NCBI RefSeq assembly: GCF_027923385.1
Contig: NZ_BSEC01000001.1
Location: 4,066,001-4,130,000, forward strand
DNA: 64,000 bases
Direction: 5' to 3'
Source of the DNA: Methylocystis echinoides
GTDB taxonomy: Bacteria > Pseudomonadota > Alphaproteobacteria > Rhizobiales > Beijerinckiaceae
Shown: in pieces, positions 2,121 to 19,842 of the stretch
Layout of the letters: each line of letters begins with the position of its first letter
How positions within the stretch are numbered: position 1 is the first letter of the stretch
The notes under the pieces: model-generated
The model's database searches: none
What the model was told of the DNA's origin: nothing
The model's input: the letters and a program-made list of their open reading frames with translations, nothing else
Made by a program: the position numbers and the translations under genes

Positions 2121-3274
2121 CAGATCGCCTCGAAGACCTGAGACAGGCTTTGTGCCTGAACTTTCAGGGAGAAGCGCTCCATGATGCGCGCCCGGCTGCG
2201 CGCCGCCATTGTCGCCCGATCCGGCGGCGTCAGGTCCAACACCTTTTGAATGGCTGCGGAAAGGGCGACCGGGTCGGCGACCTCGGTGAGGAAGCCGCAG
2301 CCCGGCGTTACGACGTCCTTGTTGCCCATGAACCTTGTCGTCACCACGGGCAAGCCCATCGACATCGCCTCCTTGATGACCATGGGACCGGTGTCCCGGG
2401 ACAGATCGGGTGCGATCTTGAACGGCGCGATCAGCCCGAGATAACGCGGGGCCTCGCGTTCGAGCCACTCGCGCTTGCGGGGTCCAAGAAAGCGGACTCG
2501 GTCGCCCAAGCCGAGTTCGGCGGCGCGCTGACGACATTCCTCGCGCAAGGGACCGTCGCCCACGAGATCGACGCTTGCGGTTCCATGCAGGGAAATTGCA
2601 GAGAGAAGATCATCGATCCCCTTCTGCTCGACGAATCTTCCCACGAATAGAAAACGCGGGATGGGCGCCGAGTCCACGGCAGGTCGAAACCCTGACGGGT
2701 CCACGCCACATGTGATGACTTCTATCTGGGCGTCTGGGGCGATCTGCGCCAGGTCGTGAGCCATATCGGTGCAGGTCGCAATCACCATGTCGGCCGAGAC
2801 CAGCTTCAGTTCGAGATCCTCGGCCTCGGAATAGACGTCATGGCCATGACAAATGAAAGAGACGCCAACACCAAGCCAGCGCGCTGCGACGATAGCGTGC
2901 GCCGTCGCTCCGCCGGCAAAATGCGCATGCAAGTGTTGGCACCCGTTGTCTTTGGCGACTGCGGCAACCTTCAGGCCGTTCCAAAAAAGCGAGCGGCGCG
3001 ACAAGCGTTGCTGAGACCACACGAAGCGCAGGGCAGAGAGGAAATTTTTAGAAGGCGAAAACAGGATTTGCAAAACGCGAAACACGGGCGTCCTGGAGGG
3101 CAATTTCGCCGTTTTCGCCAACTCAATGTCGAGCGTCTGGGCTGGCCCGTCCTTCAGATGCATGACGATCGGAACCACGCGATGCCCCTGCTGCTCCATG
3201 GCGCGCATTTCATTGCCCACGAAGGTTTCGGAAAGGACTGGAAAATCCGCGAGCACGTAACCGACCGTCTTCAT
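2120..3274 (-). CDS. Glycosyltransferase family 4 (GT-B fold)
   Basis: A 384-residue retaining GT4-type enzyme. The N-terminal half carries the acceptor-side motif LHAHFAGGATAHAI and the HGHDVY loop. The C-terminal half carries the nucleotide-sugar part: FLFVGRFVEQKGIDDL, then the E-x7-E region KEAMSMGLPVVTT. I chose the ATG at 3274 (MKTVGYVLADFP) because the family's first beta strand starts there; a frame extending to 3382 would overlap the divergent gene at 3342. It is first in the minus-strand flippase operon, and only about 67 bp separate it from the divergent GT2 gene, so that gap should hold both promoters. Donor and acceptor sugars cannot be read from the sequence. Confidence 0.85.
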   Translation of the reverse strand: MKTVGYVLADFPVLSETFVGNEMRAMEQQGHRVVPIVMHLKDGPAQTLDIELAKTAKLPSRTPVFRVLQILFSPSKNFLSALRFVWSQQRLSRRSLFWNGLKVAAVAKDNGCQHLHAHFAGGATAHAIVAARWLGVGVSFICHGHDVYSEAEDLELKLVSADMVIATCTDMAHDLAQIAPDAQIEVITCGVDPSGFRPAVDSAPIPRFLFVGRFVEQKGIDDLLSAISLHGTASVDLVGDGPLREECRQRAAELGLGDRVRFLGPRKREWLEREAPRYLGLIAPFKIAPDLSRDTGPMVIKEAMSMGLPVVTTRFMGNKDVVTPGCGFLTEVADPVALSAAIQKVLDLTPPDRATMAARSRARIMERFSLKVQAQSLSQVFEAI

Positions 3275-3341
3275 GGTCACTCCATTTGGCAAGACTTGTG
3301 CTAGGGATGGCAGCAAGTCCGGCGCCAGAAGCGATTGCACG

Positions 3342-4268
3342 ATGACCATTCCAAGATGCTCAGTGATCATTCCTACGTACAACTGCGGAAAATATCTCGG
3401 CCGTGCGTTAAACTCGGTCCGTGTTCAGGAAGTCGCAGATATTGAAATATTTGTGGTAGACGATGGTTCGACCGATGGCACGGATCGCTGGCTCGAAGAG
3501 GCGCTCGTGCGTGATGGACGTATTGTTGTGCTACAAGGCGGACATAAGGGGCCAAACGCGGCAAGAAATCTCGCCATATCTCAGGCGCGGGGCGGATTGA
3601 TTGCCTTTCTTGACGCTGACGATTTCTGGTGGCCTGAAAAAATGCTTCCCCAACTCGCTTTTCATGAGCGCAACCCTGACGTTTCTTTCAGCTTCACGGA
3701 CTATCTGCATTTTGATGTGTCAGGTCGAACGCACGGAACCTGCTTTGAATACTGGTCGCCACCCTTCTCGAAAAGCCGCTGTGGGGAGTTTTCGGTCATT
3801 CAAGACGCCGAGCGCGCTATTCTGGCTTCCAATACGGTCGGCACATCGACCGTCGTGGCTACGCGTGCGGCTTTGCAAAACGCGAACGGTTTCGCAACAG
3901 ATTTGCAGTCTGCCGCTGATTGGAAACTCTGGCTCAAGCTTGCCAATAAGGGGCGCGTGGCCGTATCCTGCGCCGTCACGATGAACTACCTCATGCGGAG
4001 TGGCAGTATTTCTGAAAATCACTCTGTTCGCATCGCTGCGATGAAGGAAATTGTCGCCGCGTACGAGAAGTGCAGCGATCCGGAAACGCGTCGGGCGTGG
4101 CGACAAGCTCGCGCACGCATCAAGGTGGCGGAGGCTGAACATCTGCGGCTTTCGGGAAACCACTGGAGCGCAGCCAAGGCCCATCTCGGCGCCTTTCTCA
4201 GCAATCCGGGAAAGCGAATCGCCAGAGCCGGGATGTCTGATATCGCTAACAGCTTATTCGTCAGGTGA
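3342..4268 (+). CDS. Glycosyltransferase family 2
   Basis: A 308-residue inverting GT-A enzyme. It shows the nucleotide-binding start CSVIIPTYNCGKYLGRAL, the DDGSTDGT motif and the metal-binding LIAFLDADDFW. The C-terminus has no transmembrane segments, so it is probably a soluble or peripheral enzyme adding one sugar to the lipid-linked repeat unit. The ATG at 3342 starts directly before the first beta strand; an extension to 3273 would add 23 residues unlike the family. Its TGA overlaps the GTG of the downstream kinase/phosphatase regulator, so the regulator is co-translated with a glycosyltransferase. Sugar specificity is unknown. Confidence 0.85.
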   Translation: MTIPRCSVIIPTYNCGKYLGRALNSVRVQEVADIEIFVVDDGSTDGTDRWLEEALVRDGRIVVLQGGHKGPNAARNLAISQARGGLIAFLDADDFWWPEKMLPQLAFHERNPDVSFSFTDYLHFDVSGRTHGTCFEYWSPPFSKSRCGEFSVIQDAERAILASNTVGTSTVVATRAALQNANGFATDLQSAADWKLWLKLANKGRVAVSCAVTMNYLMRSGSISENHSVRIAAMKEIVAAYEKCSDPETRRAWRQARARIKVAEAEHLRLSGNHWSAAKAHLGAFLSNPGKRIARAGMSDIANSLFVR

Positions 4269-5776
4269 CCTTGCGTATCTTCGAGGCCAACCGCACTGCA
4301 ACCCTGCAAGACGTCTCCTGGCTTCGCAAAGCGATGGGACGCGAGCTTCGAGCATTGCGGTTGCCTGTAGAATCGCTGGACGATCTGCAACTCGCCTTTT
4401 CAGAGCTGGCGACGAACGCCATTATCCATGGCAGCCCGGCGCCTTCTTTTCTGGATTTGGCCGTCGATATCGACGGCAGCCTTCTGATGATTACCCTGTC
4501 CGATGACGGAGGGTGTTTCAACGGATTTCACGCAGCCTGCGCATCCGTCAAAGAGAGTGCGATCAGCCCCGAAGCCACCTCTGGTCGCGGCGTGCACATC
4601 GTACAGCGAGCCTTTGACTCGATGGACTATCGCCCTACTGAGCACGGCAATGTCTTTGTCGGCCGAAGATCATTGCGCTTCTCTCGCGCTAAAATTCTGG
4701 TCGTGGAGGACGTCCAGTGCCTCCTCACGACCTACTGTGAACATCTTAGCCACGATTTTCACCCCATTGGCTGCACCTCTCTTGCCGAGGCGCGCAGTGT
4801 TATCCAGACGCAGAGGATCGACGCGGTCCTGACAGATTTTCATCTGGCGGATGGATCGGGAACGTGTCTGCTTGCTGAATATGACAAGCTCTGGCCGGAG
4901 GCGTCGCCGCCCGTCATCTTGGTCAGCGCAGACAAATCGCCGCAAATCAAAGACGCAGCTCTGCGGTTCGGCGCGGAATTTTTCGTTGAAAAGCCTGTAA
5001 AGCGCGAACAGCTTATCTCCACGATCAGGCTGGCGCTTGATCGGTCCATGATACGAAACGCCCGACTGACACGCTCTTTTGGCCGTCATGTCGACGCGCT
5101 CGTCGCCCTCGCGCCACCCGAGCAGATCGGGGCCTACGGCCTTGGGGTCGTTGCTGCGACAGCGGCGTCTGGCGGCGGCGACATCCTCTTGCATCACAGG
5201 CATGAGGATTTTGAGCGCCTCGTCATCGTTGATGTGATGGGGCATGGCGTTCCGGCAAAAGCCTGGGCCGTCGCTTATGCTGCGATCATCAAGACGCTGC
5301 AGCAGGAGAGAGCCCTCGACGCCGCAGGCTTCCTGAGAAAGCTGTCGGAGATCGCCTGGAACGACCGCTCTCTCGAAAGCGCGCTTGCGACAGTCATGGT
5401 GCTGGACATCAATGATGTCGGCGCGACGATCGCGTCGGCAGGACACCCCCCTCCGCTGGTGTTCGGAAATGAAACGATTCGAATTCCTGTCGGGGGTCCG
5501 TTGCTCGGCGTCATGCCGCCTTGCGACTATGCCTCTACGACCATTGCGCTCAATCCGGGTGACAGGCTGGTGTTCTTCACCGACGGAATTGACCCTATGG
5601 ACGTCGCCGCCGGCGGCGCGCCGCCGCACTGGTTCCTACAGGCATTCGAGACCTCCCGGTCATTTACGCTTGACAGGACACTCGCTTCAGTAAAGCGCGC
5701 CGCCGAACGGGCGCTCGGACCTCAACCCGCCGATGACTGGCTCGTCGCCGTTCTGGAAAAGGCGGCGCCAAGGTGA
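4265..5776 (+). CDS. SypE-like RsbW kinase - REC - PP2C phosphatase regulator
   Basis: A 503-residue three-domain regulator starting at a GTG coupled to the GT2 gene. Residues 1-138 are a GHKL/RsbW-type serine kinase: the N box has Glu47 and Asn51 (SELATNAIIHG), followed by LSDDGG and SGRGVHIV. Residues 142-258 are a receiver with acidic pair E148/D149, phospho-acceptor Asp191 (TDFHLADG) and Lys243. Residues 285-500 are a SpoIIE/PP2C phosphatase with GGD (304-306), Asp323 (DVMGHG), ASAGHPPP and FTDGID. The order kinase-REC-phosphatase matches SypE of Vibrio fischeri, which both phosphorylates and dephosphorylates the STAS protein SypA to gate polysaccharide production. A candidate STAS partner lies at 10032-10316. 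All catalytic motifs look intact. The last 55 bases overlap the convergent gene at 5722. Confidence 0.88.
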   Translation: MTLRIFEANRTATLQDVSWLRKAMGRELRALRLPVESLDDLQLAFSELATNAIIHGSPAPSFLDLAVDIDGSLLMITLSDDGGCFNGFHAACASVKESAISPEATSGRGVHIVQRAFDSMDYRPTEHGNVFVGRRSLRFSRAKILVVEDVQCLLTTYCEHLSHDFHPIGCTSLAEARSVIQTQRIDAVLTDFHLADGSGTCLLAEYDKLWPEASPPVILVSADKSPQIKDAALRFGAEFFVEKPVKREQLISTIRLALDRSMIRNARLTRSFGRHVDALVALAPPEQIGAYGLGVVAATAASGGGDILLHHRHEDFERLVIVDVMGHGVPAKAWAVAYAAIIKTLQQERALDAAGFLRKLSEIAWNDRSLESALATVMVLDINDVGATIASAGHPPPLVFGNETIRIPVGGPLLGVMPPCDYASTTIALNPGDRLVFFTDGIDPMDVAAGGAPPHWFLQAFETSRSFTLDRTLASVKRAAERALGPQPADDWLVAVLEKAAPR

Positions 5777-6798
5777 TAGCCGGCGTCCCGGTACACCGCG
5801 AGCGTCTTATCGACGCCAAGCTGAACACCAAACCTGTCCCGGGCGGTCCGCCAGGCGCAGTCTCGCCAGCGAGCGCCCTCCGTTTCACGCGCTCTAGTCC
5901 ATAGCTTTATGATTTGCTCGAGAGCCTCGGAGTCTTCAGGCTCGAAGAGCCATCCATTCTGCCCGTGGCGGACAACGTCTGGAATCGCGCCGACTGCCGA
6001 CGCTACGACAGGAATTCCCGCCGCCATCGCCTCCAACGCCACCATCGGCAGCCCCTCAGCGCGAGAGCTGATCACCAAGAGACCGAGTTTCTCCCACACC
6101 GGCTTCATATCGGTGACCATACCGTGAAAGAAGACCGAATTCGCATATTGCGCCTCGAGCTCCCGCTGCATCGGACCATCGCCGAAGATCTCCCAGGACG
6201 CAGCAGCGCTCGATTTGGCTGCGACACTGCAAAAAATATCGGGGCCCTTTTCCAGGCTCAGGCGACCGACGAATCCGATTCTTGCTGGCAGTGGCTGAGT
6301 AGGCGCGAGATCAGGCGCGACGACGAAATTCGGGATATGTTCGGACGCAAACGGAAGCCGCTCCGCGATCGGCGCGCTAACCGAGATGCGACTCGCGAGA
6401 CAGCTCGTGATTTCGTCGATGCGCTGATAGAGAGATACCGGGAAGGCGGCGATTTCACCTGCGTGAAAAGTCGAAACGACCGGCACGCCTGAGAGGCGGG
6501 CCGCAAATCTTCCAATGATTCCCGCCTTGTAACCATGGGTATGGAGCAGGCCCGCGCCTGAAGCGCGGACATACGACGCCAGCCCGAGCACGCCACCATC
6601 GAGAAAGCCATAAGGCAGACTCGCGGCCTTGAGTTGCGAAAGCCATTTGTTTGGGCCGTGGTCCTCCAAAAGAAGGATCCGCGCGTCCAGGGCTCGCTCC
6701 CGCAATCCCGCCGCCAGTGTCGCAACATGCCGCTCGATGCCACCGATTCCGCTCGAGTCGACAAGGAGAAAGATCGGGGCGCCTTTAAGTTCGGACAT
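5722..6798 (-). CDS. Glycosyltransferase family 4
   Basis: A 358-residue GT-B enzyme. The N-terminus has the glycine-rich donor loop SSGIGGIERHVATLA typical of GT4, the central HTHGYKAG acts as acceptor-side motif, and the C-terminal half has RIGFVGRLSLEKGPDIF and the E-x7-E region LEAMAAGIPVVASAVG. The start ATG at 6798 lies inside the 3' end of the CpsD-like gene (6785), so the two overlap by 14 bases and are probably co-transcribed in the order lipoprotein, SLBB exporter, CpsD-like, glycosyltransferase. Its 3' end overlaps the convergent kinase/phosphatase gene by 55 bases. Confidence 0.85.
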   Translation of the reverse strand: MSELKGAPIFLLVDSSGIGGIERHVATLAAGLRERALDARILLLEDHGPNKWLSQLKAASLPYGFLDGGVLGLASYVRASGAGLLHTHGYKAGIIGRFAARLSGVPVVSTFHAGEIAAFPVSLYQRIDEITSCLASRISVSAPIAERLPFASEHIPNFVVAPDLAPTQPLPARIGFVGRLSLEKGPDIFCSVAAKSSAAASWEIFGDGPMQRELEAQYANSVFFHGMVTDMKPVWEKLGLLVISSRAEGLPMVALEAMAAGIPVVASAVGAIPDVVRHGQNGWLFEPEDSEALEQIIKLWTRARETEGARWRDCAWRTARDRFGVQLGVDKTLAVYRDAGYHLGAAFSRTATSQSSAG

Positions 6799-7540
6799 CG
6801 AAGATTTTCATTCTTCTTGCTCTGGCCGCGAGGCTTTCCGCGAGCGACGGCGCGAATCGGGCGAATCGCATTGCCTCCCGCGCAAGCTCTTCGCCCAGGG
6901 TCGGCTGATCCCGGCCATTGATGATCACGCCCCGCACAGGAATTCCAGCCAGGACGCGCTTCGCGCGATGAATGGCGAGGCGCGTCACTCTTCCGCCCAT
7001 ACAGACCAAGATGGATGTATCGACGCAGGATGCAGTGATGTAACCTGGCACGGTGTCATTCGGCCGAGCAATCGCTGGCGCGCAATTGACGACAACGGCA
7101 TCGTAGTTCTGGAGCGTCTGTGAAAAGAGCTTCCGCAGGAACTCCTGGGTGCGAAGTCGGTAAAGTTCGCCGGTATCGGGGTGAATTGTCAGAATGTCGT
7201 AACCGTCGTCAGAGACGCGCTTATGCGCCCTCCCATGCTCTCTGTCGTGTGCGCCGCTGACGTCAACGACGATCACGCGCATGTTTGTCAGCGCACAACG
7301 CCTGGCGAGGGCGGCGGCAAGAGTTGTGACGCCATCGCCAGATTCGACGCCGATCAGGCCGACCACTCTTTGACCTTCTCCAAATGTCGCCTGGAACAAA
7401 GCATCAATTTCGTGCGACGATGGGTCGATCGACGCAGGGCGAACCTGAGTGAAATCGGCAGGGCGGGGGCGAAACAATTGTCTCAGCCATTCAAGGCCCA
7501 GGCGTCCGATTTGAGGCGCATTGATTGTGGTGTAACTCAT
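6785..7540 (-). CDS. CpsD/CapB-like polysaccharide ATPase with degenerate nucleotide motifs
   Basis: A 251-residue protein with the fold pattern of the cytoplasmic bacterial tyrosine kinase (BY-kinase) domain, next to an export protein as usual. The three nucleotide motifs are all altered. The Walker A region at 64-73 reads GVESGDGVTT, with Val71 where the P-loop lysine should be. The Walker A' strand at 89-97 (VIVVDVSGA) keeps only one of the usual acidic residues. The Walker B strand at 147-155 (DAVVVNCAP) has Asn152 where Asp is expected. There is no tyrosine cluster at the C-terminus. I infer a non-catalytic, scaffold-like relative of CpsD/Wzc. The start overlaps the SLBB gene's stop (ATGA). 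Confidence 0.75.
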   Translation of the reverse strand: MSYTTINAPQIGRLGLEWLRQLFRPRPADFTQVRPASIDPSSHEIDALFQATFGEGQRVVGLIGVESGDGVTTLAAALARRCALTNMRVIVVDVSGAHDREHGRAHKRVSDDGYDILTIHPDTGELYRLRTQEFLRKLFSQTLQNYDAVVVNCAPAIARPNDTVPGYITASCVDTSILVCMGGRVTRLAIHRAKRVLAGIPVRGVIINGRDQPTLGEELAREAMRFARFAPSLAESLAARARRMKIFDVRT

Positions 7541-9657
7541 CTCACCCCCAAAGCCGACATGATCGAAAACAGTGACGCCGCCTGGATGATATCCTTGGCT
7601 TCATCGCGGAACTGACGCCATTCGTCCTGACTCTTATTTGGCACATAGACAACGTCGCCGGCTCGAACGACCGGAAGCCGATTAATGTCGCCTGTCTTCG
7701 CGAAACCGAGAAGATCAAAGACGCGCGCCTGCGCCTGGCCACTCGACATGTTGATCACGAGAATCTTCTCCTGTAACGCGTCGCCGTTTGGCCCGCCGGC
7801 CTCGGCGAGAAGGTCGAGAAGCGACATATCATCGGAGAACTGATATCGCCCCGGCTTGTTGATCGCCCCCAACATCCGCACCGTCCGCGAGGCCGGCTGG
7901 TCCAGATAATCCTTAGTGCGATCTGGAACATAAATGACGTCGCCAGGCTTTACTCTCGGGAGCAGTTTCTCGTCGCCGGTCTGCAGATAAAGGCTAAGAT
8001 TGACGTTGGTCATCTTGGCGCCCGTCTGCCCACGGTGGGAGACGCGAATATTGCGCAGATCCGCTGTACCGGTGGGTCCGTTCGCCGCAGTGATGATGTC
8101 GAGAAATCCCAAAGTGCTGTTAAAGGCGTAACGGCCAGGGGCGCCAACCTGACCCATGACATAGATCGACTGCTCGGGCGCCTGGCGGGTCCACTGCGAC
8201 TTGTTGTCGTTGGGGTCCTGTGGCAACTCCGGCACCATAATGATGTACCCGGCCCTGATTTTGGGCACATCCTTTACTGAACCGCCACCCTTGAGAAAGC
8301 TTTCAAGATTGAAAAGAATGGGATTGGCGCGATCGTTCTCGTTGCGCAAAATCTGGATATGGGCGATATCGGCGCGGGCTGTCGGACCGCCAGCCTGCGC
8401 AAGTAAATCGAAGAGAGACATTTCGTCCGCCCATTCGAAGCGGCCAGGCTTGTAGAGCGCGCCCATGACCTGCACGGCGCGCGTGGTGGGAATCTTGAGC
8501 CACGAAGGTTCCTGGGTCTCATTCTTTTCAGGAACGAAGATGGCGTCACCCGCGCTGACGGCGGGCGGCTTTCCAGCTTTACCCTCGGTATATTTCGGCA
8601 TATCGAACATCTCGACCTTGCCGGTGCCCCGAATGATCCGTATTTGACGCGTGTCGGCGAAGCGCGTCGGCCCCCCCGCGTTGGCCAGAATGTCGATGAA
8701 GGTGGCGCCTTCCTTCGTCTCGAAGGCGCCGGGTTTCGCGACTTCGCCCATCACATAGACTGTGAGGGCGCCACGCCGAACCTCCTCGACCTGTTTTGGG
8801 ACAAAAATCGTCGCGCCCGGCTCGATTTCGGGCAGCAATTTCTTGTCCCCGCTGTCGAGATAAGCGGCCAGGTTGAAGACCACCGGCGTGCCCTTGTTAA
8901 TGATCCGGATCTGATCAGGCGACGCATAGCGCGTTACGCCGCCAGCGCGCATGATCATATCGATAACCGTCGCACCCTTCTTCCAGGCAAAAATTGCGGG
9001 GGTGTTCACCTCGCCGAACACCTTGATCGCTGAATGTTCCTCGGCGCCGTCGCCGGCCGCAGCCAGTGTCCGGCCATCAAATTCGATTTGGACTTTTCCA
9101 GTGAGCGGCGACGCGGGGACGAAGACCACATCAAGCGGCTCGAGCCGAGGCAACAGCGTCATGTCGCCGGAATCGAGATATTTCTTGTAATCGATCTCCG
9201 TGGTCGTTCCGTTCGGCCGCTTGAGTTGGATCTTGTCGAGCTGCGCGCCCTGAACCAGTCCACCTGCTGCGACGATCGCCATTTGCACGGTCGCGTCCGG
9301 CGCGAGTTCGACGTTGCCGGGATTTTTGACGTAGCCGTGCACACTGACGAGAAGCTTCTGTTCCTTGAGCGACACGGAAAGCTTGTCGAGATCCCGATAG
9401 GCGCGACCCAAGGCCTCACGAATGGCGGCAGAAGCCTCGGCGAGCGTTCGATCCTTCACCATCACACCGCCAACCTCAGGCAGCTGCACCATACCCCTGC
9501 GATCTATCTGGAACGGCCTGCTGAATGCCGCCTCGCCGGGAACATCGATGGTCAGCACGTCGCCGATCTTCAAATTCGGCTCTCCCTCAGCTGCCCATGC
9601 CTGGATCGGAGCCAACAGAAAGAGCATGACAGTCAGAAGAAGTATGCGCAGCGCCAT
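7537..9657 (-). CDS. Polysaccharide export protein with six SLBB repeats (Wza-like)
   Basis: A 706-residue secreted protein. Residues 1-22 are a signal peptide ending QAWA/AEG, without a lipobox cysteine. Residues about 27-105 are the polysaccharide export (PES) domain. Six SLBB modules follow, each starting with a pattern like VMGEVAKPGAF and ending with a strand like DVIYVP, at about 107-182, 212-287, 301-374, 394-473, 498-577 and 592-671. The C-terminus is a short amphipathic segment. Wza of E. coli is roughly half this length with two SLBB-type domains, so this is an enlarged relative. Wza-type proteins form the outer-membrane export channel. The neighbouring lipoprotein and the CpsD-like protein are probable partners. 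Confidence 0.88.
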   Translation of the reverse strand: MALRILLLTVMLFLLAPIQAWAAEGEPNLKIGDVLTIDVPGEAAFSRPFQIDRRGMVQLPEVGGVMVKDRTLAEASAAIREALGRAYRDLDKLSVSLKEQKLLVSVHGYVKNPGNVELAPDATVQMAIVAAGGLVQGAQLDKIQLKRPNGTTTEIDYKKYLDSGDMTLLPRLEPLDVVFVPASPLTGKVQIEFDGRTLAAAGDGAEEHSAIKVFGEVNTPAIFAWKKGATVIDMIMRAGGVTRYASPDQIRIINKGTPVVFNLAAYLDSGDKKLLPEIEPGATIFVPKQVEEVRRGALTVYVMGEVAKPGAFETKEGATFIDILANAGGPTRFADTRQIRIIRGTGKVEMFDMPKYTEGKAGKPPAVSAGDAIFVPEKNETQEPSWLKIPTTRAVQVMGALYKPGRFEWADEMSLFDLLAQAGGPTARADIAHIQILRNENDRANPILFNLESFLKGGGSVKDVPKIRAGYIIMVPELPQDPNDNKSQWTRQAPEQSIYVMGQVGAPGRYAFNSTLGFLDIITAANGPTGTADLRNIRVSHRGQTGAKMTNVNLSLYLQTGDEKLLPRVKPGDVIYVPDRTKDYLDQPASRTVRMLGAINKPGRYQFSDDMSLLDLLAEAGGPNGDALQEKILVINMSSGQAQARVFDLLGFAKTGDINRLPVVRAGDVVYVPNKSQDEWRQFRDEAKDIIQAASLFSIMSALGVR

Positions 9658-10016
9658 CAGGATCGAGCCTTCACACTACGTTTCCCGGAGTTACGCAAGC
9701 GTTGCTCGATCGACGCAATCTTTTCGTCCAGCGCGTCCATGTCGCTCTCTGCATCGATGTTGAGTTCGCCGGCGACCTCCCGTCGGACACGCCTCATGAG
9801 GGTCTCCGCTTCGCAGAAGTCCGACGCCGCATAAATAGTGGCGTTGCGCTCTCTCAGAATTTCAAGTCGCTCGTTGAGCGCGCTTGCTCGTTCGTCGGCG
9901 ATCGGCGACCATTCGGCCATACCGCCGCCGCCGGCCTTCGGCCAAGGATCTGCCTTCATCAAAGCGCATCCCGAGACGGACGTCGCATAAAGGAGAATGA
10001 GAAGAAATCGCTTCAT
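9657..10016 (-). CDS. Small lipoprotein of the export operon
   Basis: A 119-residue protein with a short signal peptide and a clear lipobox (SVSGC; Cys17). After cleavage the rest is a charged, mostly helical domain with coiled-coil-like heptads (ERASALNERLEILRERN, then a second helix near residues 90-115). It is not a family I recognise. The stop overlaps the ATG of the SLBB exporter (TGATG) and the STAS gene lies only 15 bases upstream, so it belongs to one transcription unit with both. An accessory role to the SLBB exporter in the outer membrane is plausible but is inferred only from the lipobox and the position. Confidence 0.7.
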   Translation of the reverse strand: MKRFLLILLYATSVSGCALMKADPWPKAGGGGMAEWSPIADERASALNERLEILRERNATIYAASDFCEAETLMRRVRREVAGELNIDAESDMDALDEKIASIEQRLRNSGKRSVKARS

Positions 10017-10031
10017 CGCTTTTCAAGCGCC

Positions 10032-10316
10032 TCAGGCGAGATCGCCGCCAATATCCTTGATCAGGAACCCGAGACGGAGTTCCTGCATGAGGCGCAGTGG
10101 CTGGCCGTCCACATTGATCAACGAGAGGTCGAGCGAGCGCTCGCGAAGCCGTTTGAAGAGGAAAACAATTCCGCCAACCCCTGATGAATCGATGAATTCG
10201 ACCTTTTCGAGATCAAGGCGAATGCCCTTGGGGCTCGCCGCGAGCACTTCAAATTCACTTTTCATCGACGCCATGGCGGCCGCGTCCATGTCCTGCTTGA
10301 TCTTGACGATTTGCAT
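10032..10316 (-). CDS. STAS-domain anti-sigma factor antagonist (SypA-like)
   Basis: A 94-residue single STAS domain. The phospho-acceptor loop FIDSSGVGG at residues 41-49 keeps the two serines; by comparison with SpoIIAA the target is Ser45. The ATG at 10316 has a GGAGA ribosome binding site eight bases upstream; the longer open frame to 10790 overlaps the divergent glycosyltransferase and lacks STAS character. STAS proteins of this kind are switched by an RsbW-type kinase and a PP2C phosphatase. This locus encodes both activities on one protein (4265-5776), so the two most likely form a SypE/SypA-type pair. It is first in the operon for the lipoprotein, exporter and CpsD-like protein. No sigma factor is seen nearby, so the output may be direct, as for SypA. 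Confidence 0.85.
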   Translation of the reverse strand: MQIVKIKQDMDAAAMASMKSEFEVLAASPKGIRLDLEKVEFIDSSGVGGIVFLFKRLRERSLDLSLINVDGQPLRLMQELRLGFLIKDIGGDLA

Positions 10317-10522
10317 TTGGGATTCTCCGTTTTCACCATGAGGCAGCAACGCACATGCCAACTGCCGCGTCTGACAAGACGGATGAAAAGCCCTGCAATT
10401 CCCTGCAAAAAGCAATCGTCTTCGCGTTTTGCAAAGTTGCGAGAGCGAATTTGAAGCAACTTCGCGAAAAAAATCGCGTTCGCCGCTGGCACGCCGATTG
10501 CCGACGGTCCGGCCCAAGAGAC
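10317..10522. promoter_or_regulatory. Divergent control region between export operon and glycosyltransferase operon
   Basis: About 200 bases without a convincing gene separate the STAS-led minus-strand operon from the plus-strand glycosyltransferase operon, so promoters for both should lie here. I could not pick out clear -35/-10 hexamers. Locally AT-richer pieces occur around 10395-10480. Confidence 0.4.
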
Positions 10523-11611
10523 ATGTCGTCTCGTCGGAATAAACGGATGCCGAGCAGCATACTCCACGTTGTCCAGCGCCTTGCGCCCGGGGGCCTTGAA
10601 GTACTTTCCCTGGAATTGGCGCGCCATCTACCGGGCCAGAATGCGATCGTGAGTCTCGAGGGCGCCATGCCCACGCTCCACCATGATTGGCCGCGCATCG
10701 GCAAAAGTGGCGTAACCATCTTTGGCATGGACAAACAGCCGGGCGTCGAACCGACGCTGATCGGACGTCTGGCTCGGCTGTTCCGCGCACGCAGCGCGAC
10801 GACGATCGTCACGCATCATGCCGGGCCCTTCCTTTACGCGGGACCCGCCGCGCGTTTAGCGGGCGTGAAACGCATCATCCATGTCGAACATGACGTCTGG
10901 CACTACGAGTCGCCGAGACGCCGCCGCGTCATGCGCGCCGTCGCGCAGTTCGTGCGGCCACAGATCATCGCCGTCTCCGACAAGCTCGAGCCGACGCTTG
11001 TGGGCGTCTTTCCCGGACATAAGGTCAAAACAATCGCAAACGGCGTCAACGTCGCCAGCTTTTCGCTTGACCGTCTCGCGGCGAGACGACAGCTCGACCT
11101 GGGTGCGGCTTCAAAGGTAATCGGCGCGGTAGGACGACTCGAAGTGGTGAAGGGACATGACGTACTCATCGAGTCGCTTCTGTTCTTACCGCAGGACGTT
11201 ACTCTCGTCATCATAGGCGATGGTTCGCAGCGAGCCTCTCTCGAGTCGATGGCGCGGGCGATCAGCGTCTCAGACCGCGTTCGCTTCATTGGGCACCGCG
11301 ATGATGTGGCCAATCTATACGCCGCCTTCGATGTTTTCTGCCAGCCCTCCAGGAATGAGGGTCTTCCGCTCGCGGTTCTGGAAGCGCAAGCTTGTGACGT
11401 TCCCGTGATCGCCAGTGCTGTCGGCGACATGGCCTCAGCCGTCTGCCCGCATAGCGGCGCCCTCGTGACACCTGAGGCGCCGCGTGAACTCGCATCAAAA
11501 CTGTGGGAGGCCTTCCTCAGGCCGAAGATGCACAGCCCCATTCAATTCGTGCAGGAACATTTTGGTTGGGACCGAACGCTGGCTGAATATCGCAGCGCGA
11601 TGGAGGTCTGA
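10523..11611 (+). CDS. Glycosyltransferase family 4
   Basis: A GT-B enzyme of about 362 residues. Motifs in order are LHVVQRLAPGGLEVLSLELA (donor loop), HHAGPFLYAG, VIGAVGRLEVVKGHDVLIES, and the E-x7-E region LEAQACDVPVIASAVGDM. The open frame continues upstream to 10355, but the first 56 residues are unlike the family and fall in the divergent control region. I prefer ATG 10523, with ATG 10547 as alternative; neither has a strong ribosome binding site. The gene is followed after five bases by the GT2/phosphoglycosyl transferase fusion, and the two form a plus-strand operon. Confidence 0.82.
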   Translation: MSSRRNKRMPSSILHVVQRLAPGGLEVLSLELARHLPGQNAIVSLEGAMPTLHHDWPRIGKSGVTIFGMDKQPGVEPTLIGRLARLFRARSATTIVTHHAGPFLYAGPAARLAGVKRIIHVEHDVWHYESPRRRRVMRAVAQFVRPQIIAVSDKLEPTLVGVFPGHKVKTIANGVNVASFSLDRLAARRQLDLGAASKVIGAVGRLEVVKGHDVLIESLLFLPQDVTLVIIGDGSQRASLESMARAISVSDRVRFIGHRDDVANLYAAFDVFCQPSRNEGLPLAVLEAQACDVPVIASAVGDMASAVCPHSGALVTPEAPRELASKLWEAFLRPKMHSPIQFVQEHFGWDRTLAEYRSAMEV

Positions 11612-11615
11612 AAAC

Positions 11616-13418
11616 ATGCTGCTCGAAACAATCTGCACAATCAGCAGCGGCCTGATCGTGTATCATCACGCATTATATCCGCCTCTCCTGCGAAAACTTG
11701 CTGGAATATCCCGCGACGAACGAGGCGAGACTGGAATCGTCGAGCGGCCGACAGTGGCGCTTATTGTGCCTGCGTATAACGAGGCGCGGTTCATCGCCGA
11801 CAAAATAGAAAATATCGCAGCGCTCGACTTTCCGAGTGACAGGCTTAAAATTCTCATCGTCTGTGACGGAAGCGTCGACGCAACTGCTATGCTCGCAAAG
11901 CGGAAAATTGCGGAACTTGGCGAAAGAGCGCAGATATTCGAATTGATTGATCACGCCGAAAATCGTGGCAAAGTCGCGGTTCTAAACGAGACAATCTCAA
12001 CCGTCGTCGCAGACCTCGTCGCCTTGACCGACGCATCGGCGTCTCTTCCGAGAAATGCTCTGACACAGGCCTGTCGTCACTTTTCCGAGCACCGCGTCGG
12101 CGTAGTGACAGGTGAATATGTTGTGAATGCAGTGGATTCGCGTGCGCGCGCATACTGGAAATATCAGGTCAGCATCAAGGCCGCGGAGGCAGCGCTCGGC
12201 TCACCCATCGGCATGCATGGAGCCTTTTACGTCTTTCGACGCGCCCTTTGGCAGCCTTTGGAACCGGATACGATTAATGACGACGTCATCCTGCCGATGA
12301 GAATAATCGCCTCCGGCTTGACTGGGATATATGACCGATCGATCCAAGTCCTGGAAAAGGACGTCGACAGCTTTTCCGTCGACATGGCGCGTAGGGAGCG
12401 CCTCGGCGCCGGCGCCGTTCAGCAGATCATCCGCCTTTGGAGACTCGCAGATCCCCGCCACCCCGGCGTGGCATTCAGCTTCCTTTCCGGGAAGGCGTTG
12501 CGCGCATTCATGCCGCTGCTGCTGCTCGTCGCCTTCATCACAAACGCAATACTTGCCGGGACGAAGCTCCTTTGGATGCTGACCTTTCTGGCTCAACTTA
12601 TCCTGCACGGCGTTGCACTGGCCGGTCTTGTCGACACCAGACTCGCTCGCATGCCTATGGTCGGCAAGCTTTCATACTTTTTGGGAGGATACACAATGGC
12701 GATGATTGGCGCGGCGAAGTATCTGGTGGGTGGAAAAAGAGAGGCGTGGAAACGGATCTCAGGCGCGTCCACCGTCAGCCAGGAAGGGGTCTACCTCGAA
12801 AACGGGGCAATAAAAGGCAAGCGTGTCCTCGATTGCGTGATTGCCTCCTACGCCCTCATCGCGTTAGCGATTCTCTATGTCCCGATTGCGGTCGCCATCA
12901 AAATCGAAAGTCGTGGACCAGTCTTCTATCGCCAGCTGAGAGTGGGACTGCGAACCGCAAAGCAGACCAATTTCTTTCATCTCACCAAATTCCGAACGAT
13001 GAGGAGTGATGCAGAAGCGAGAACGGGCGCGGTCTGGGCCTCAACCGACGACCCTCGCGTCACGCGCGTCGGCCGTTTTCTGCGCAAGACGAGGCTCGAC
13101 GAGCTGCCCCAGTGCTTTGACGTCCTGCGAGGCGACATGTCGATCGTCGGGCCCCGCCCGGAGCGACCCCAGTTCTTCCGTTGGCTCGAGGCGGAAATTC
13201 CCTTTTATGCAGAGCGCACATACGGGCTGAAGCCGGGAATCACGGGGCTTGCCCAAGTCAAACTTCCCTACGATAGCTCGATCGAAGACGTCCGGGCCAA
13301 GGTGCTTCACGATCACGCCTACGCTTTACAGCTTGCGGCGCCGGGAAATTGGCTATGGACCGACATATCAATCATGCTGCGCACCTTCTCGGTCATGATC
13401 TTGGGAAAGGGTCGCTAG
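11616..13418 (+). CDS. Bifunctional GT2 glycosyltransferase - phosphoglycosyl transferase fusion
   Basis: A 600-residue protein starting at ATG 11616, with GGAGG ten bases upstream. Residues about 45-280 are a GT-A domain ([27 protein letters not shown]). Hydrophobic segments occupy about 290-370. Residues about 400-600 are a complete bacterial sugar transferase of the WbaP/ExoY type: a membrane hairpin after GKRVLDC, then [25 protein letters not shown] and IVGPRPERP. That second module should start repeat-unit assembly by moving a sugar phosphate onto undecaprenyl phosphate; the first would add a later sugar. Fusing an initiating and an elongating enzyme in one chain suggests substrate channelling. 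Confidence 0.87.
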
Positions 13419-13989: not shown

Positions 13990-14559
13990 ATGTACGGGAT
14001 CGTGAACAAATCAATTAAGGAATATGTCACGACCACGGATGGCGCTCGCACCTGGGAACGAATCCGCAATCAGGCTGGCGTCGATCTCGACGTATTCATC
14101 AGCAATAAGCCCTACCCAGACGAAATTAGCTATCGCCTCGTCTCCGCCGCTGTGGAAATATTGGGTGTCAGCTCGCGCGACTTTCTCATTGGTCTTGGGG
14201 AGCACTGGATAATCAAGACCGGCCAGAATCACTATGGTCCCCTTCTCGCGGCCGGCGGAGAATCGTTCGCAGACTTTCTCATCAATCTGAACCAGTTCCA
14301 TTTGCGCGTTCGTCTCATTCATCCTGAACTCAACCCGCCGGATTTTATATGCACAGATGTTGAGCCATATAGACTGAAATTGCATTATAGGACTCACAGA
14401 CCCGGGCTGAGTGACTTTGTAGTCGGTCTTCTGCAAGGATTAGGCACATTATTCAGTGACGATGTATTCGTTGAACTGATCGAGTCCAAGAATCAAGGAG
14501 CCGACCACGACGTTTTTGACGTAAGGTGGGCGCCAAAGATATCAGGCGTAACAAGATGA
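13990..14559 (+). CDS. H-NOX (heme NO/O2-binding) sensor protein
   Basis: A 189-residue protein covering one complete HNOB domain. It starts with the canonical MYGIVNKSIKEYV, has the proximal heme ligand His104 in NQFHLRVRL, the conserved proline of NPPDF, and the heme-propionate-binding motif at 133-137. That motif reads YRTHR, so the usual YxSxR has Thr135 for Ser. H-NOX proteins bind NO at a histidine-ligated heme and regulate a partner enzyme. The ATG at 13990 follows GAGCGAGG, and a frame extending to 13915 adds nothing family-like. Its stop overlaps the ATG of the next gene (ATGA), whose N-terminus is the matching HNOBA domain, so the pair is one NO-responsive system. Confidence 0.9.
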   Translation: MYGIVNKSIKEYVTTTDGARTWERIRNQAGVDLDVFISNKPYPDEISYRLVSAAVEILGVSSRDFLIGLGEHWIIKTGQNHYGPLLAAGGESFADFLINLNQFHLRVRLIHPELNPPDFICTDVEPYRLKLHYRTHRPGLSDFVVGLLQGLGTLFSDDVFVELIESKNQGADHDVFDVRWAPKISGVTR

Positions 14560-17500
14560 TAGAGCCGCCGGTCTTTTCCGACGAGTTGCAGGAAGTACTG
14601 CGAGCGTTTCCGTTCTTCATTGCCTGGAACGAAGACGGCCTCATCGTCGCCACGGGCCCTTCTCTCCTCAGGTTCGCGCCAGCCGCGAAACGAGGCGAGA
14701 AGGTGGCGGCGGTCTTCCTTGACCAACGCCAGATCGACGAGACGCCGTTTCTTCTGAACGGCAGGCGACCCCATGAACCTCTCGTCATAACAGATCGAGC
14801 GAGTGGCCGCACACTACGGGGCTCAATATTAATCCTGCCCAGCTCAAAGCTGGCGGTCATGCTGGCGTCGCCGTGGATCGCGACGCCGGAGCAATTGAGG
14901 GAATGCGGCCTCAAGTTGAAGGACTTCGGACCACACGACCAGACACTTGAGATATTGCAGATTGTTCAGTCTCAGCAGATGGGAGCAGACGATCTGGCTG
15001 AGCTCAACAGAGCTTTGAATGCAGAACGGGCGAAATATCGCGCAGAGGCAAATACAACGCGTTCTCTGCTGAGAAACGCCTCTGACGGCATCCACATTCT
15101 TGATAGGGATGGGCATCTTATTTACGCGAGCGATTCTTTCGCGCGGATGCTCGACTATGAACCCCGCGAAGTTATAGGCATGCATGTCTCCCAATGGGAT
15201 GCCTATTTCAAGGCTGACGAATTACAAACGTGGGTCACGCAACTTTTCGCGAGTGAGTCCGTAACGACATTTGAGACGCTCCATCGACGAAAGGACGGCC
15301 AATCCTTCGAAGTCGAAGTGACAGCGCACGCGGTGCTCTCAGATGGCGCGTCGTTGACGCTGTTCTGCTCCTCGCGAGATGTTACGCAGAGAAAAAGACA
15401 GGCCGCGCGCCTGGAAAGCCTGAACGCCAGGCTTGAGGCGACAATTGGCGCTGCAATGGACGCCGTCATTGTCATGGATACGAGAGGGAGAATCATAGAG
15501 TTCAACGCTGCAGGTGAACAGATATTCGGTTATCGCCGCGATGAGGTCATCGGGAGGCAGGTCAGTCAGACGATTGTGCCTGAGCGGCATCGCGAGGCAC
15601 ATGCTCGGGGATTGGCCCACTATCTGAACACCGGTGACGGACCCGTGCTTGGCAATCGCATCGAGGTGGATGCGCTCAGGAAGGATGGGACCGAATTCTC
15701 GGCTGAACTGGAAATGGATGTTGCGCGTACACCAGAGGGGGAGTTTTTCGTCGCATTCTTGCGCGACATCAGCGAACGCAAGAGTAGCGAAGAGGCGCTT
15801 AGACAATATCGAGACACCCTCGAGGAAATGGTTGCTTTGCGCACAGAGGAACTGCAAAGCAAGTCGACGATTCTCGACGCCATCGTCAACACGTCGCCGA
15901 GTGGCCTTCTTCTCGCGGACACGGACGGCCGCATATTCATGACGAATCCGGCGCTCGAAAAAATGTTCGGCTACGGGCCTTCAGAACTTATTGGTCAATA
16001 CGTCGAACAACTTATTCCAGAGTCAATCCGCGCGGAGCACCAACGACATCGTGTTAAATTCGCACTTGATCCGAAGCCCAGAGACATGGGGTACAGGCTG
16101 GACTTGCTCGGACGGCGCGCAGACGGGACAACGTTTCCCTCCCGAATCTCATTGACGTCATTCCACATAAAGGAAAAGCTGTTCATCCAGGCTACAGTGA
16201 TCGACACCACGGAACAGAAACGCCATGAAGAAGAATTGCGTGTGCTGAACGCGAGCCTCGAGATGAAGGTCGCGCTACGCACAGCTGAACTCGGAGAGGC
16301 GAGCGCTGCAAAAAGCACATTCCTCGCTCACATGAGCCATGAAATCCGCACGCCGATGAATGGCATACTCGGCCTCGCCCAGTTACTTGAGCGTTCGCCG
16401 CTCTCATTCGATCAAAGAGACATGGTGCTGCGGATCCAGCAGGCAGGCAAGTCGTTGCTCGCGATCATCAACGATGTTCTCGATTTTTCGAAGATCGAGG
16501 CAGGTGAGTTGAGAATCGAAAATCAACCGTTTCGGCTTGGATCTGTCCTTAGCCAGGTTGACAGCCTCCTTGGGCCTACGGCGCATAGCCGAGGCCTTGA
16601 AATTTTCATCGAAACGCCCACCGGCTTCGATGACGGGATGATTGGAGATGCTTTCAGACTTGAACAGATTCTCATGAATCTCGTTAGCAACGCAATCAAA
16701 TTCTCGGAACAGACCGCTGTCCGTGTCGACGTGAAGGTTCTACCTTCGTCATCTGTTGACGCCCGGCTACGCTTCGAAGTGAAAGACAAGGGAATTGGCA
16801 TATCTGAAGAGAACCAGAAGCGCTTGTTCACTCCATTTACCCAAGCCGACGCCAGCATCACGCGTCAGTTTGGCGGCACGGGGCTCGGGTTGGCGATCTC
16901 GCGTTGTCTGGTCGAACTCATGGGAGGCGAAATAGGTGTTTTCAGCACGCTCGGGATTGGCTCTACCTTCTGGTTCGAAATTCCGTTTCGACGCCAAAAA
17001 GTGCTGACTCCAAGTAACGAAGTTTCTTTGGGGCGGAAAGCCGATAGCGGTCCCAGACTGTCTGGTCTAAGATGCCTGGTGGTGGACGACAGTCGAATGA
17101 ATCGGGACGTCGTCGAGCGGATTCTGACCATTGAAGGCGCGAAGGTCACGACGGCAGTGGATGGCCGGCAGGCGCTCGCAACCCTGGAGACCCAAGCAGA
17201 TCAATTTGACGTTGTGCTCATGGACATCCAAATGCCGTTAATGGACGGCCTGACGGCGACCAGAATTATCCGAGCAAATCCTTTGCTGAGGAGATTGCCG
17301 ATCATCGCCCTGACGGCCGGCGTGTTGCCGGATCAGGTGGAACAAGCGAAAGCGGCAGGTTGCGATGACTTCCTCGCTAAACCCGTGGATTTCGACCAAC
17401 TGGTTGGAACGTTGATGGTAAGAACAGGAGGTCACTCAGTAAACGAAGGAGGTCCGGTTTCGAACATTCCTGGGATTGAACCTCACTGTGCAACAGTTCC

Positions 17501-17801
17501 ATATCGTGACGATCCCAAGTTTTTTGTTCATCTTCTAGAAGAGTTTGTTTGCGAATTTGGCTCAATCACGGATCAGGTGCGCAGCGCCATCTCGAGCGAG
17601 AATTTCGGAGAAGCCGCTCGGCTATTGCACATGCTCCGTGGGTCATGCGGTTATATCGGAGCCGTCAACTTGCAGAGCGCCATAATGAGCTTAGAAAAAG
17701 CATTGCTGGACGAAGTCGGGGATGTGGCGGCCCAGAACTTTTTTTCTGAAGCTGACACATTAATGCGTGATCTACGAGAATTTCTGAATGTCAACGAGTA
17801 A
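14556..17801 (+). CDS. HNOBA - PAS x3 - HisKA - HATPase - REC - Hpt hybrid histidine kinase
   Basis: A 1081-residue soluble hybrid kinase. The first about 165 residues are the heme-NO-binding-associated (HNOBA) domain, with [14 protein letters not shown] and the LASPW...[11 protein letters not shown] region, joined to a coiled linker. Three PAS domains follow (about 175-300, 300-420, 430-570). Then come HisKA with phospho-acceptor in [15 protein letters not shown] (about residue 600), HATPase with [10 protein letters not shown], a receiver with [11 protein letters not shown] and [12 protein letters not shown], and a C-terminal Hpt with [12 protein letters not shown]. All phosphorelay residues are present, so it can carry a phosphoryl group through all steps internally. 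ATG 14556 overlaps the H-NOX stop. The output regulator is not evident in the window. Confidence 0.88.
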
Positions 17802-17817
17802 ACTGATGCGCCCGGCT

Positions 17818-18028
17818 TTACACAGGCGACTTCCGCAAGGGCAGGAGAGTTAGAACCAAATCCTCAAGATTGACTGGTTTGGGAAGGAAATCTTGGCACC
17901 CCGCATCAAGAGTCTTGCCTGCCTCTTTCAGGTGATTGACCATCTCAGCTTGTCGTGGAGACAGCGGCTCATCCTGCAATAGCTGGGCAATACCCAGTAT
18001 TTTGAATTTCAGCCTCCCGTGCCTCTAG
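17818..18028 (-). pseudogene. Remnant of a hybrid histidine kinase: HisKA piece fused to the end of a receiver
   Basis: Read on the minus strand, this unannotated stretch encodes about 60 residues ending in TAA at 17818-17820. The first half is a HisKA helix (ILGIAQLLQDEPLSPRQ, then AGKTL). It continues directly in frame into the end of a receiver (DAGCQDFLPKPVNLEDLV). The HATPase domain and most of the receiver, several hundred residues, are missing between them, so an internal deletion joined the two ends. Toward the IS the sequence preserves LEAREAEIQ, which continues the GAF fragment on the far side of the IS, but the HisKA part is one frame off. So this is a dead gene with at least two lesions besides the IS insertion. 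Confidence 0.8.
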
Positions 18029-19337: not shown

Positions 19338-19842
19338 CTAGAGCCAAACAGATTGTATTTTCCGCGTTAAGCTCCGACTTAGCAACAAATCTAAGATCGG
19401 AGAGAATCGCGGTCTGCTTGTCGTTCGATTGGCGCGGCTTCATATCAATAGCGCAAAGGGTTCCTATCTTTTGCCCTTGCGAAGCCTTTACAGGGAAACC
19501 GGCATAGAAGCGGATGTGCGGGTTTCCCGTAACGATCGGGTTGTCGTAGAAGCGCGAGTCGCAAGTTGCGTCTGGGACAATGAGGGGCTGATCACTTAAA
19601 ATCGTATACCCACAGAAGGCCGCGTCTCGCGAAGTCTCTGTCACAGGCAGCCCTTGTATGGACTTAAACCATTGTCGGTTTTTGCCCACCAAAGAAGCAG
19701 CCGCGACAGGAATGTCGATAACGCTGCAGACGATTCGCGTGATTCTCTCGAAACGCTCATCGGTAGCTGTGTCAAGTATCTTCAGGTCACGCAAAGATTG
19801 AAGACGTTCTGCTTCATCTTCAGGGAGCGGGGCGCCACTCAT
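19327..19842 (-). pseudogene. GAF domain: N-terminal half of an IS-interrupted hybrid kinase
   Basis: The frame encodes an N-terminal GAF domain of about 160 residues (LQSLRDLKILDTATDERFE, DAAFCGYTIL, FYAGFPVK, GTLCAIDMKPR), then runs into the IS at 19337 and stops 11 bases inside it. Removing the IS and one CTAG joins its last residues to LEAREAEIQ of the remnant at 17818-18028. GAF-HisKA-REC proteins of this type sense small molecules or redox state. The truncated GAF could still be made but lacks its kinase. Confidence 0.8.

Follow-up and report, generated by a model that had tools for sequence, protein, structure and literature searches.

A syp-type exopolysaccharide locus with a probable SypE/SypA-like switch and a neighbouring H-NOX/hybrid-kinase gene pair in Methylocystis echinoides

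Introduction

The closest described counterpart of the locus reported here is the symbiosis polysaccharide (syp) system of Vibrio fischeri, in which, according to the available parts of PMC4517449 and PMC3610818, the unphosphorylated response regulator SypE phosphorylates and inactivates the STAS protein SypA, and phosphorylated SypE reactivates it. As far as the available text of PMC4517449 and PMC10120452 goes, this STAS switch has no known sigma-factor endpoint and the action of SypA is still open. We describe a syp-type exopolysaccharide locus of Methylocystis echinoides, located in a stretch of 64,000 nucleotides (assembly GCF_027923385.1, contig NZ_BSEC01000001.1, forward-strand positions 4,066,001 to 4,130,000) that is called the window below; coordinates without a prefix are positions of the window. 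A preliminary description of this DNA had singled out a SypE-type gene and a STAS gene as a SypE/SypA-like partner switch.

Syp-like loci have been reported in 28 genera (26 gammaproteobacterial genera plus Elstera and Terasakiella), with no Hyphomicrobiales among the orders listed in the available part of that paper (PMC8941931). Elstera and Terasakiella are genera of the Rhodospirillales, not of the window's order. The preliminary description knew of no report of the pair in methylotroph-like alphaproteobacteria. For Hyphomicrobiales, no description of a SypE/SypA or H-NOX-linked syp locus was found in the open-access literature, as far as its available text goes; syp-like loci had already been published for two alphaproteobacterial genera of another order. 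V. vulnificus and V. parahaemolyticus have no SypE (PMC4517449, available part). A further input is described in V. fischeri, where HnoX with nitric oxide (NO) inhibits HahK, which acts via SypF and LuxU on SypG; an effect of HahK on SypE is a speculation of the authors (PMC12369376, available part).

The SypE-type protein and the syp core

The core genes of the locus are as follows (aa, amino acids).

4265..5776, plus strand: SypE-type response regulator, 503 aa, with RsbW-like serine kinase, receiver and PP2C phosphatase (Pfam, alignments)
10032..10316, minus strand: SypA-type stand-alone STAS protein, 94 aa, with candidate phosphoacceptor Ser44 (Pfam, identity, tree)
9657..10016, minus strand: SypB-like small lipoprotein, 119 aa (24.5% identity over 106 aa; lipoprotein call by eye from the N-terminal sequence)
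7537..9657, minus strand: SypC-like polysaccharide export protein, 706 aa, with Poly_export and SLBB repeats (Pfam; V. fischeri-type SypC)
6785..7540, minus strand: SypD-like protein of the ParA/BY-kinase type, 251 aa, lacking the Walker A lysine (identity; alignment of 18, by eye)
5722..6798, minus strand: GT4 glycosyltransferase, last in the STAS operon and convergent with the SypE gene (Pfam)
3273..4268, plus strand: GT2 glycosyltransferase, its stop overlapping the SypE start

Pfam places HATPase_c_2 at residues 12-130, Response_reg at 144-254 and SpoIIE/PP2C at 318-497 of the 503-aa protein, which bears out the coordinates and the domain order given earlier; the order kinase, receiver, PP2C within a single protein is that of SypE. 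The gene starts with GTG at 4265, inside the overlap with the TGA (4266-4268) of the preceding GT2 gene. Regarding the catalytic residues, the kinase domain has E47 and N51 of the N box plus D80, G82, G107 and G109, the receiver keeps D149, D191 and K243, and the PP2C domain keeps D306, D323, D440 and D491. Across all three domains they vary little, if at all, in 23 relatives of 24% to 51% identity and, with the exception of G82, in a wider alignment of 25, confirming the earlier view that the kinase N box, receiver Asp191 and PP2C metal residues are intact; D491 is replaced by Gly in one relative (L201). The window protein also retains the equivalent of N52, an Asn reported as needed in V. 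fischeri SypE (PMC3610818, available part). Among the 25 of 36 NCBIfam matches listed, no model reached its cut-off for the SypE-type protein, and a sequence search of PDB returned receiver domains, one PP2C match and two distant STAS proteins.

As V. fischeri-type reference, loci L181 and L182 were chosen by SypA residues named in the available part of PMC4517449 (e.g., G25, R27, D55, S56, Y64, K67, R68, K90, R93 and P99), counted by eye; the SypE protein of L181 has Asn at position 52, matching PMC3610818. Compared with L181, the identities were 35.8% over 81 aa for SypA (7.5e-19), 24.5% over 106 aa for SypB (1.8e-6, a weak match), 51.1% over 704 aa for SypC (0.0), 21.9% over 228 aa for SypD (1.2e-18) and 29.0% over 449 aa for SypE (2.2e-47). 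The SypB-like protein had no Pfam match. The order STAS, small lipoprotein, SLBB export protein, ParA/BY-kinase-like protein is common to the window and the V. fischeri-type locus and equals sypA-B-C-D; in the window these four genes and the GT4 gene form an apparent STAS operon, and the GT4 gene beside SypE is retained in relatives. The proposed likeness to SypE and SypA thus held in both sequence and gene order, as did the placement of the SypE and STAS genes in different operons, each tied to glycosyltransferase or export genes and here found to be convergent. The locus is more complete than a SypE-STAS pair, having a conserved sypA-D core with SypE convergent to it.

The SypA-type STAS protein and its pairing with SypE

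The STAS protein at 10032-10316 is real (PF01740, 4.9e-13) and is encoded on the minus strand, which had not been stated before. Both serines named earlier, Ser44 and Ser45, are present. The column of Ser44, which corresponds to SypA Ser56, holds Ser in 52/52 aligned STAS rows (many of them close relatives) and that of Ser45 in 44/52, so that the putative phosphoacceptor is better placed at Ser44.

The preliminary description spoke of a single STAS protein. One does head the export operon, but the genome carries 13 STAS matches, four of which, the window protein included, fit a stand-alone protein. Two of the other three stand-alone genes adjoin an RsbW-type kinase match; next to the third, at C1:1373920, there is no kinase match. 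In a tree of STAS proteins the nearest row to the window protein is the Roseiarcus syp STAS, within a five-row set (support 97/93) that includes a second, diverged Roseiarcus STAS, and the three other stand-alone STAS proteins of the window genome fall in another group; the window STAS is accordingly closer to syp-locus STAS proteins than to the others of its own genome. The syp rows together do not form one clade, the syp row of L201 falling outside, and the group count on the tree (7 changes) is unreliable, the syp-linked or duplicate rows L058, L271 and L273 having been labelled 'other'.

A STAS model scan covered 17 genomes, 16 of them with SypE. In seven of the 16 (G043, G118, G148, G388, G990, G991 and G992) the sole short-frame STAS match is the one of the syp-type locus; the remaining nine have additional short STAS frames. 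The distance matrices of SypA and SypE correlate with r 0.92 over 39 loci, which lies within the range of other linked pairs (0.88-0.96) and therefore reflects shared inheritance, not contact.

Distribution and co-occurrence

The syp-type core recurs in Hyphomicrobiales, Chromatiaceae, Pseudoalteromonas and Vibrionaceae; the nearest named relatives among the matches listed were Roseiarcus and other Hyphomicrobiales records. SypE was found in 6/397 genomes of the order at 1e-30 and SypC in 4/397 at 1e-60, all four among the six (the two samples being taken as identical genome sets). By genus, all three SypC genera lay within the four SypE genera of 141. The Fisher p was 1.5e-8 by genome and 8.7e-6 by genus, with the window genome counted and related genomes not independent. 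A sample of Pseudomonadota gave full-length three-domain matches in 3/398 genomes; the other 40 genomes with matches at 1e-40 mostly matched in the receiver and PP2C parts. Within Vibrionaceae, 74/247 genomes had matches at 1e-40, 11 of them to two-domain receiver-PP2C proteins only, and none of the remaining 63 belonged to the genus with the LuxQ marker.

The SypE-type loci examined numbered 57 (56 distinct, L047 being identical to L120) and comprised 27 from a contig search, five from the search of the order, 23 of the 63 Vibrionaceae matches, one from G642 and the window. The contig search yielded at least 80 loci, and 53 of the 80 listed were left out as matching mainly the PP2C part. A STAS gene accompanied the SypE-type gene in 51 of the 56 distinct loci: in 50 it was either part of the locus, at a distance of no more than about 22 kb, or on another contig (G148), and in L039 it lay 33 kb off on the same contig. 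No STAS gene was found for L041, L042 and L055, nor for L046 and L063, both of which are ended by contig ends. STAS, SLBB and ParA genes all occurred with SypE in 39 loci. In L055, L056, L063 and L064 the SypE protein does not reach the length of the three-domain form. The co-occurrence expected from the preliminary description is thus present, and the partner-switch reading has the support of both tests that could be computed, this one and the V. fischeri-type comparison; the link between SypE and SypA is strongly supported by genomics.

The pair exists outside polysaccharide loci as well: in L053, L054, L061, L064 and L122 a STAS gene stands beside SypE without any of the export genes searched for. 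Such pairs were seen in Rhodospirillaceae-type genomes, in Thalassobaculum and in G212 (with the shorter SypE in L064). Another alphaproteobacterial locus (L201:3536-10528, genome G642) has two STAS genes, one at the head of sypA-D, the other flanked by the SypG-type and SypE-type genes. Azorhizobium-like SypE proteins (L039:10004-12109; P0020, P0021, P0022 and P0024) carry a C-terminal extension resembling an Hpt domain, with a Pfam match for L039 alone (E 0.01, below the cut-off); the SypE gene of Azorhizobium is 33 kb distant from the syp-type operon (L250).

Transcription control

The stretch between the STAS operon and the genes divergent from it holds the following features.

10345..10360, minus strand: sigma-54 (-24/-12) promoter-like site before the STAS operon, 11/12 positions (motif search)
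10361..10486, no strand: inter-site stretch carrying TTGCA/TGCAA pentamers, a candidate SypG/LuxO-type enhancer (pentamer count)
10487..10502, plus strand: sigma-54 promoter-like site before the divergent GT4 and GT2-sugar transferase genes, 11/12 positions (motif search)
10547..11611, plus strand: GT4 glycosyltransferase, start picked by comparison with relatives (Pfam)
11616..13418, plus strand: fusion of GT2 and Bac_transf, start picked by eye (Pfam)

The motif search used 12 consensus positions and required GG and GC; the two sites are the sole matches this good on both strands of the 64 kb. A site of at least 10/12 precedes sypA in 15/17 alphaproteobacterial syp-type loci (five of them near copies), being absent in L044 and L250, and in 13/23 Vibrionaceae loci, the V. 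fischeri-type locus included. In the loci of Chromatiaceae and Pseudoalteromonas the same search gave no site, nor did it give one next to the STAS genes that lack export genes. A divergent partner site of at least 10/12 was present in 8/12 loci. The 170 bases upstream of the STAS-operon site contain four TTGCA/TGCAA pentamers (shuffle p 0.024), as many as in just one of 376 tiled windows of the 64 kb; enrichment over shuffles at p < 0.05 was seen in 7/14 loci, and L040 has zero pentamers. Scans for sigma-70 promoters and terminators gave no more than chance.

A SypG/LuxO-type activator gene lies among polysaccharide-like genes at C1:4053535-4054941, 11 kb to the left of the window. Its best model is LuxO (580 bits, with the cut-off of 800 not reached) vs 405 bits for NtrC; V. 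fischeri-type SypG likewise scores below the cut-off (LuxO 603 vs NtrC 374). The activator shares 51% identity with the SypG-type protein of G388. Regarding the earlier statement that no sigma or anti-sigma factor is nearby, none was noticed, without a dedicated search; sigma-54 sites and a sigma-54-type activator do, however, belong to the locus.

The H-NOX gene and the hybrid kinase

Two genes follow the GT2-Bac_transf gene and overlap each other by four bases.

13990..14559, plus strand: H-NOX (HNOB) haem NO/O2 sensor, 189 aa (PF07700, 1.4e-41)
14556..17801, plus strand: hybrid histidine kinase with HNOBA, three PAS, HisKA, HATPase, receiver (REC) and Hpt domains (Pfam on the translation from 14553)

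An H-NOX gene together with a HNOBA/PAS/HisKA/REC/Hpt hybrid kinase within a syp-type locus is new here. A PAS-HisKA-HATPase-REC-Hpt kinase directly after the GT2-Bac_transf gene was found in four other loci of the same taxonomic order, those of G043, G118, G148 and G388, and a SypG-type gene directly follows this kinase in all four (in G148 it is ended by the contig end). In Roseiarcus a hybrid kinase of the Hpt type lies about 3.4 kb away; Roseiarcus fermentans, a cultured species that carries the switch, gave no H-NOX match. The H-NOX/hybrid-kinase pair at 13990-17801 probably provides the two-component input postulated earlier. The window genome has a second H-NOX gene (C1:2055132-2055614, L253), which likewise shares a few bases with a histidine-kinase gene.

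Proposed mechanism and alternatives

A SypG/LuxO-type regulator together with sigma-54 RNA polymerase would transcribe both the STAS-export operon and the divergent glycosyltransferase genes. By analogy with V. fischeri, unphosphorylated SypE would phosphorylate the SypA-type STAS protein at Ser44 and turn polymer output off; phosphorylation of receiver Asp191 would make SypE act as PP2C phosphatase, so that SypA is dephosphorylated and output is on. Both the direction of the switch and the phosphorylation of the serine are transferred from the V. fischeri experiments, whereas genes, domains, residues, synteny, co-occurrence and promoter-like sites are observed directly. The phosphate for SypE would most likely come from the Hpt domain of the locus hybrid kinase, and the neighbouring H-NOX may control this kinase in response to NO (or O2); the step from kinase to SypE is suggested by position and domains. 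If V. fischeri is a guide, NO would leave SypE less phosphorylated in this system, and less polymer would be put out. We consider it likely that the locus is a syp-type exopolysaccharide locus with SypG-sigma-54 transcription, a SypE/SypA gate and the H-NOX-linked kinase as its probable phosphate source. The narrower proposal of a self-contained relay from NO to polysaccharide, in which H-NOX acts on the Hpt-bearing kinase, the kinase phosphorylates SypE directly and SypE sets the state of SypA Ser44, is tentative, its chance being put somewhat below even.

Several observations weigh against this picture. Unlike in V. fischeri, the window SypE gene is on the opposite strand, in another operon and not directly downstream of sypD, and the window SypB is short (119 aa vs 279 aa in the V. 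fischeri-type locus). The window STAS has Ala where V. fischeri SypA has Arg27, a residue that SypE control requires in that species; Arg occupies this position in just 4/25 syp-locus STAS rows, for which reason, on the alignment, we do not take it as defining for the switch. The kinases at the same place in G043, G118, G148 and G388 have no HNOBA match, no kinase was found at that place in L245-L247 within the sequence around these loci, and H-NOX, present in 6/17 genomes, adjoins syp genes in the window genome only. The SypG-type gene is not adjacent to the kinase in this genome. Finally, an RsbW-type kinase gene on contig 3 has a PAS-PP2C gene adjacent but no STAS match beside it.

The restriction of the H-NOX linkage to one genome of 17 supports another reading of the input. 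The SypE-SypA pair may work as stated while the H-NOX/hybrid-kinase pair feeds another output (for example cyclic di-GMP or the SypG branch) and SypE receives its phosphate from another kinase of the genome. A second hybrid kinase, without Hpt, is encoded at 20569-22827, and HahK works through SypF and LuxU, not directly (PMC12369376, available part); the recurrence of an Hpt-ended hybrid kinase after the GT2-Bac_transf gene, with a SypG-type gene adjoining, in four other loci of the order counts against it. We regard this alternative as possible rather than probable. That the STAS protein is served by the contig-3 kinase, with SypE acting on a different STAS protein, would fit the missing STAS partner of that kinase and the STAS gene without adjacent kinase match at C1:1373920. 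It is highly unlikely given that SypE and window-type STAS proteins co-occur across classes, that the other STAS proteins of the window genome fall in another tree group and that seven genomes showed no other stand-alone STAS in the model scan.

Classical partner switching onto a sigma factor, with the exopolysaccharide locus incidental, would equally agree with the STAS fold and the RsbW and PP2C domains. HsbR of Pseudomonas aeruginosa, a response regulator with the domain order receiver, PP2C, kinase, acts on the STAS protein HsbA, with a sigma-factor pathway as target. HsbR-HsbA also affects biofilm (PMC6482189, available part). The domain order of the window protein is that of SypE, sequence and gene order follow syp, and the locus offers sigma-54 sites in place of a sigma or anti-sigma gene (none noticed, without a dedicated search); both the HsbR/HsbA and the RsbV/RsbW form of this explanation were rejected, and we hold it to be very improbable. 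Decay of the locus after insertion-sequence activity, leaving the switch out of use, might be suspected from the insertion sequence at 18067-19215, the transposase-like open frames in and beside the window, the separation of the SypG-type gene from the kinase and the same-genus genome G238, which has no SypE or SypC match. With all listed genes open, catalytic residues intact and both promoter-like sites present, its probability appears slight.

Regarding the target of SypA, STAS adjoins SypD in L040, L043 and G043, and G043 keeps STAS, SypD, SypE, kinase and SypG-type genes with no SypC match. Because G043 retains STAS and SypD without SypC and the two adjoin in three loci, SypD is the first candidate; a STAS-SypD contact is a guess, and rather unlikely. 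That SypC is dispensable for SypA, as L040 and L043 had suggested, was rejected for these two loci, whose genomes both carry SypC elsewhere; G043 alone supports it.

Other features of the locus and its surroundings

The Walker A lysine is replaced (by Val, Thr, Ala, Ser or Asn) in 18/18 aligned SypD-type proteins, the V. fischeri type included (by eye), and SypD-type proteins are perhaps a pseudo-ATPase family, to judge from this alignment. The SypC-like frames of G118, G148 and G388 are much enlarged (963-1397 aa; L215:5090-9283, L216:12317-15589 and L214:5125-8016), perhaps by additional SLBB repeats. The insertion sequence at 18067-19215 (plus strand) has a DUF772/DDE transposase and inverted ends and lies beside a minus-strand frame with a GAF domain (19327-19842); on its other side is a receiver-like end (17800-18030, by eye). 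It probably interrupts one gene, since GAF-domain frame and receiver-like end flank it. An unusual fusion is encoded at 30318-34034 (plus strand), where a frame of 1238 aa combines a flavoprotein reductase domain with a BFD-like [2Fe-2S] domain and two cyclic-nucleotide (cNMP)-binding domains.

Significance

Given its absence from V. vulnificus and V. parahaemolyticus and the lack of three-domain matches in the LuxQ-marker genus within the Vibrionaceae sample, SypE could look like a local invention. The presence of switch and syp core in Hyphomicrobiales implies that the SypE/SypA switch is old or widely transferred. The seven hosts in which no other stand-alone STAS was found would be simpler for finding the SypA target, which may be narrowed, SypD deserving the first test. 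If the relay is as proposed, NO gating of a syp-type polymer would not be an invention of the squid symbiosis, and one locus would unite functions that in V. fischeri are divided among HnoX, HahK, SypF/LuxU and SypE, located apart from one another.

Comparison with known systems

HsbR/HsbA likewise combines a response regulator carrying kinase and PP2C domains with a STAS partner, but in a domain order that differs from that of the window protein. The scv/rbd loci of other Gammaproteobacteria, Elstera and Terasakiella have homologous export and glycosyltransferase genes, a SypG ortholog and ScvN-ScvO (SypQ-SypR) fusions, which the GT2-Bac_transf fusion resembles in domain make-up; the scv locus of V. 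parahaemolyticus differs in being without SypE and SypF (all PMC8941931, available part).

With V. fischeri syp the window shares the sypA-B-C-D order, the domain order and residues of SypE, Ser44 as equivalent of Ser56, a SypG/LuxO-type activator and a sigma-54 site before sypA. It differs in the GT4 gene between SypD and SypE (an arrangement like that of other Hyphomicrobiales loci), the fusion of GT2 and sugar transferase, the loss of SypA Arg27, a SypG-type gene about 15 kb from SypE, and a HNOBA kinase with its H-NOX partner inside the locus. In V. fischeri, too, the H-NOX gene is in an operon with a sensor kinase, HnoX-HahK acting upstream of SypG and SypE (PMC12369376, available part). 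In G797 and G805, unlike the window locus, H-NOX is distant from the syp genes. HahK signals via SypF or LuxU, whereas the window kinase, likened to it by the gene arrangement, has its own Hpt domain and lies inside the locus; by this analogy, H-NOX and hybrid kinase may be a condensed version of the HnoX-HahK-SypF-SypE relay, whose genes are scattered in V. fischeri.

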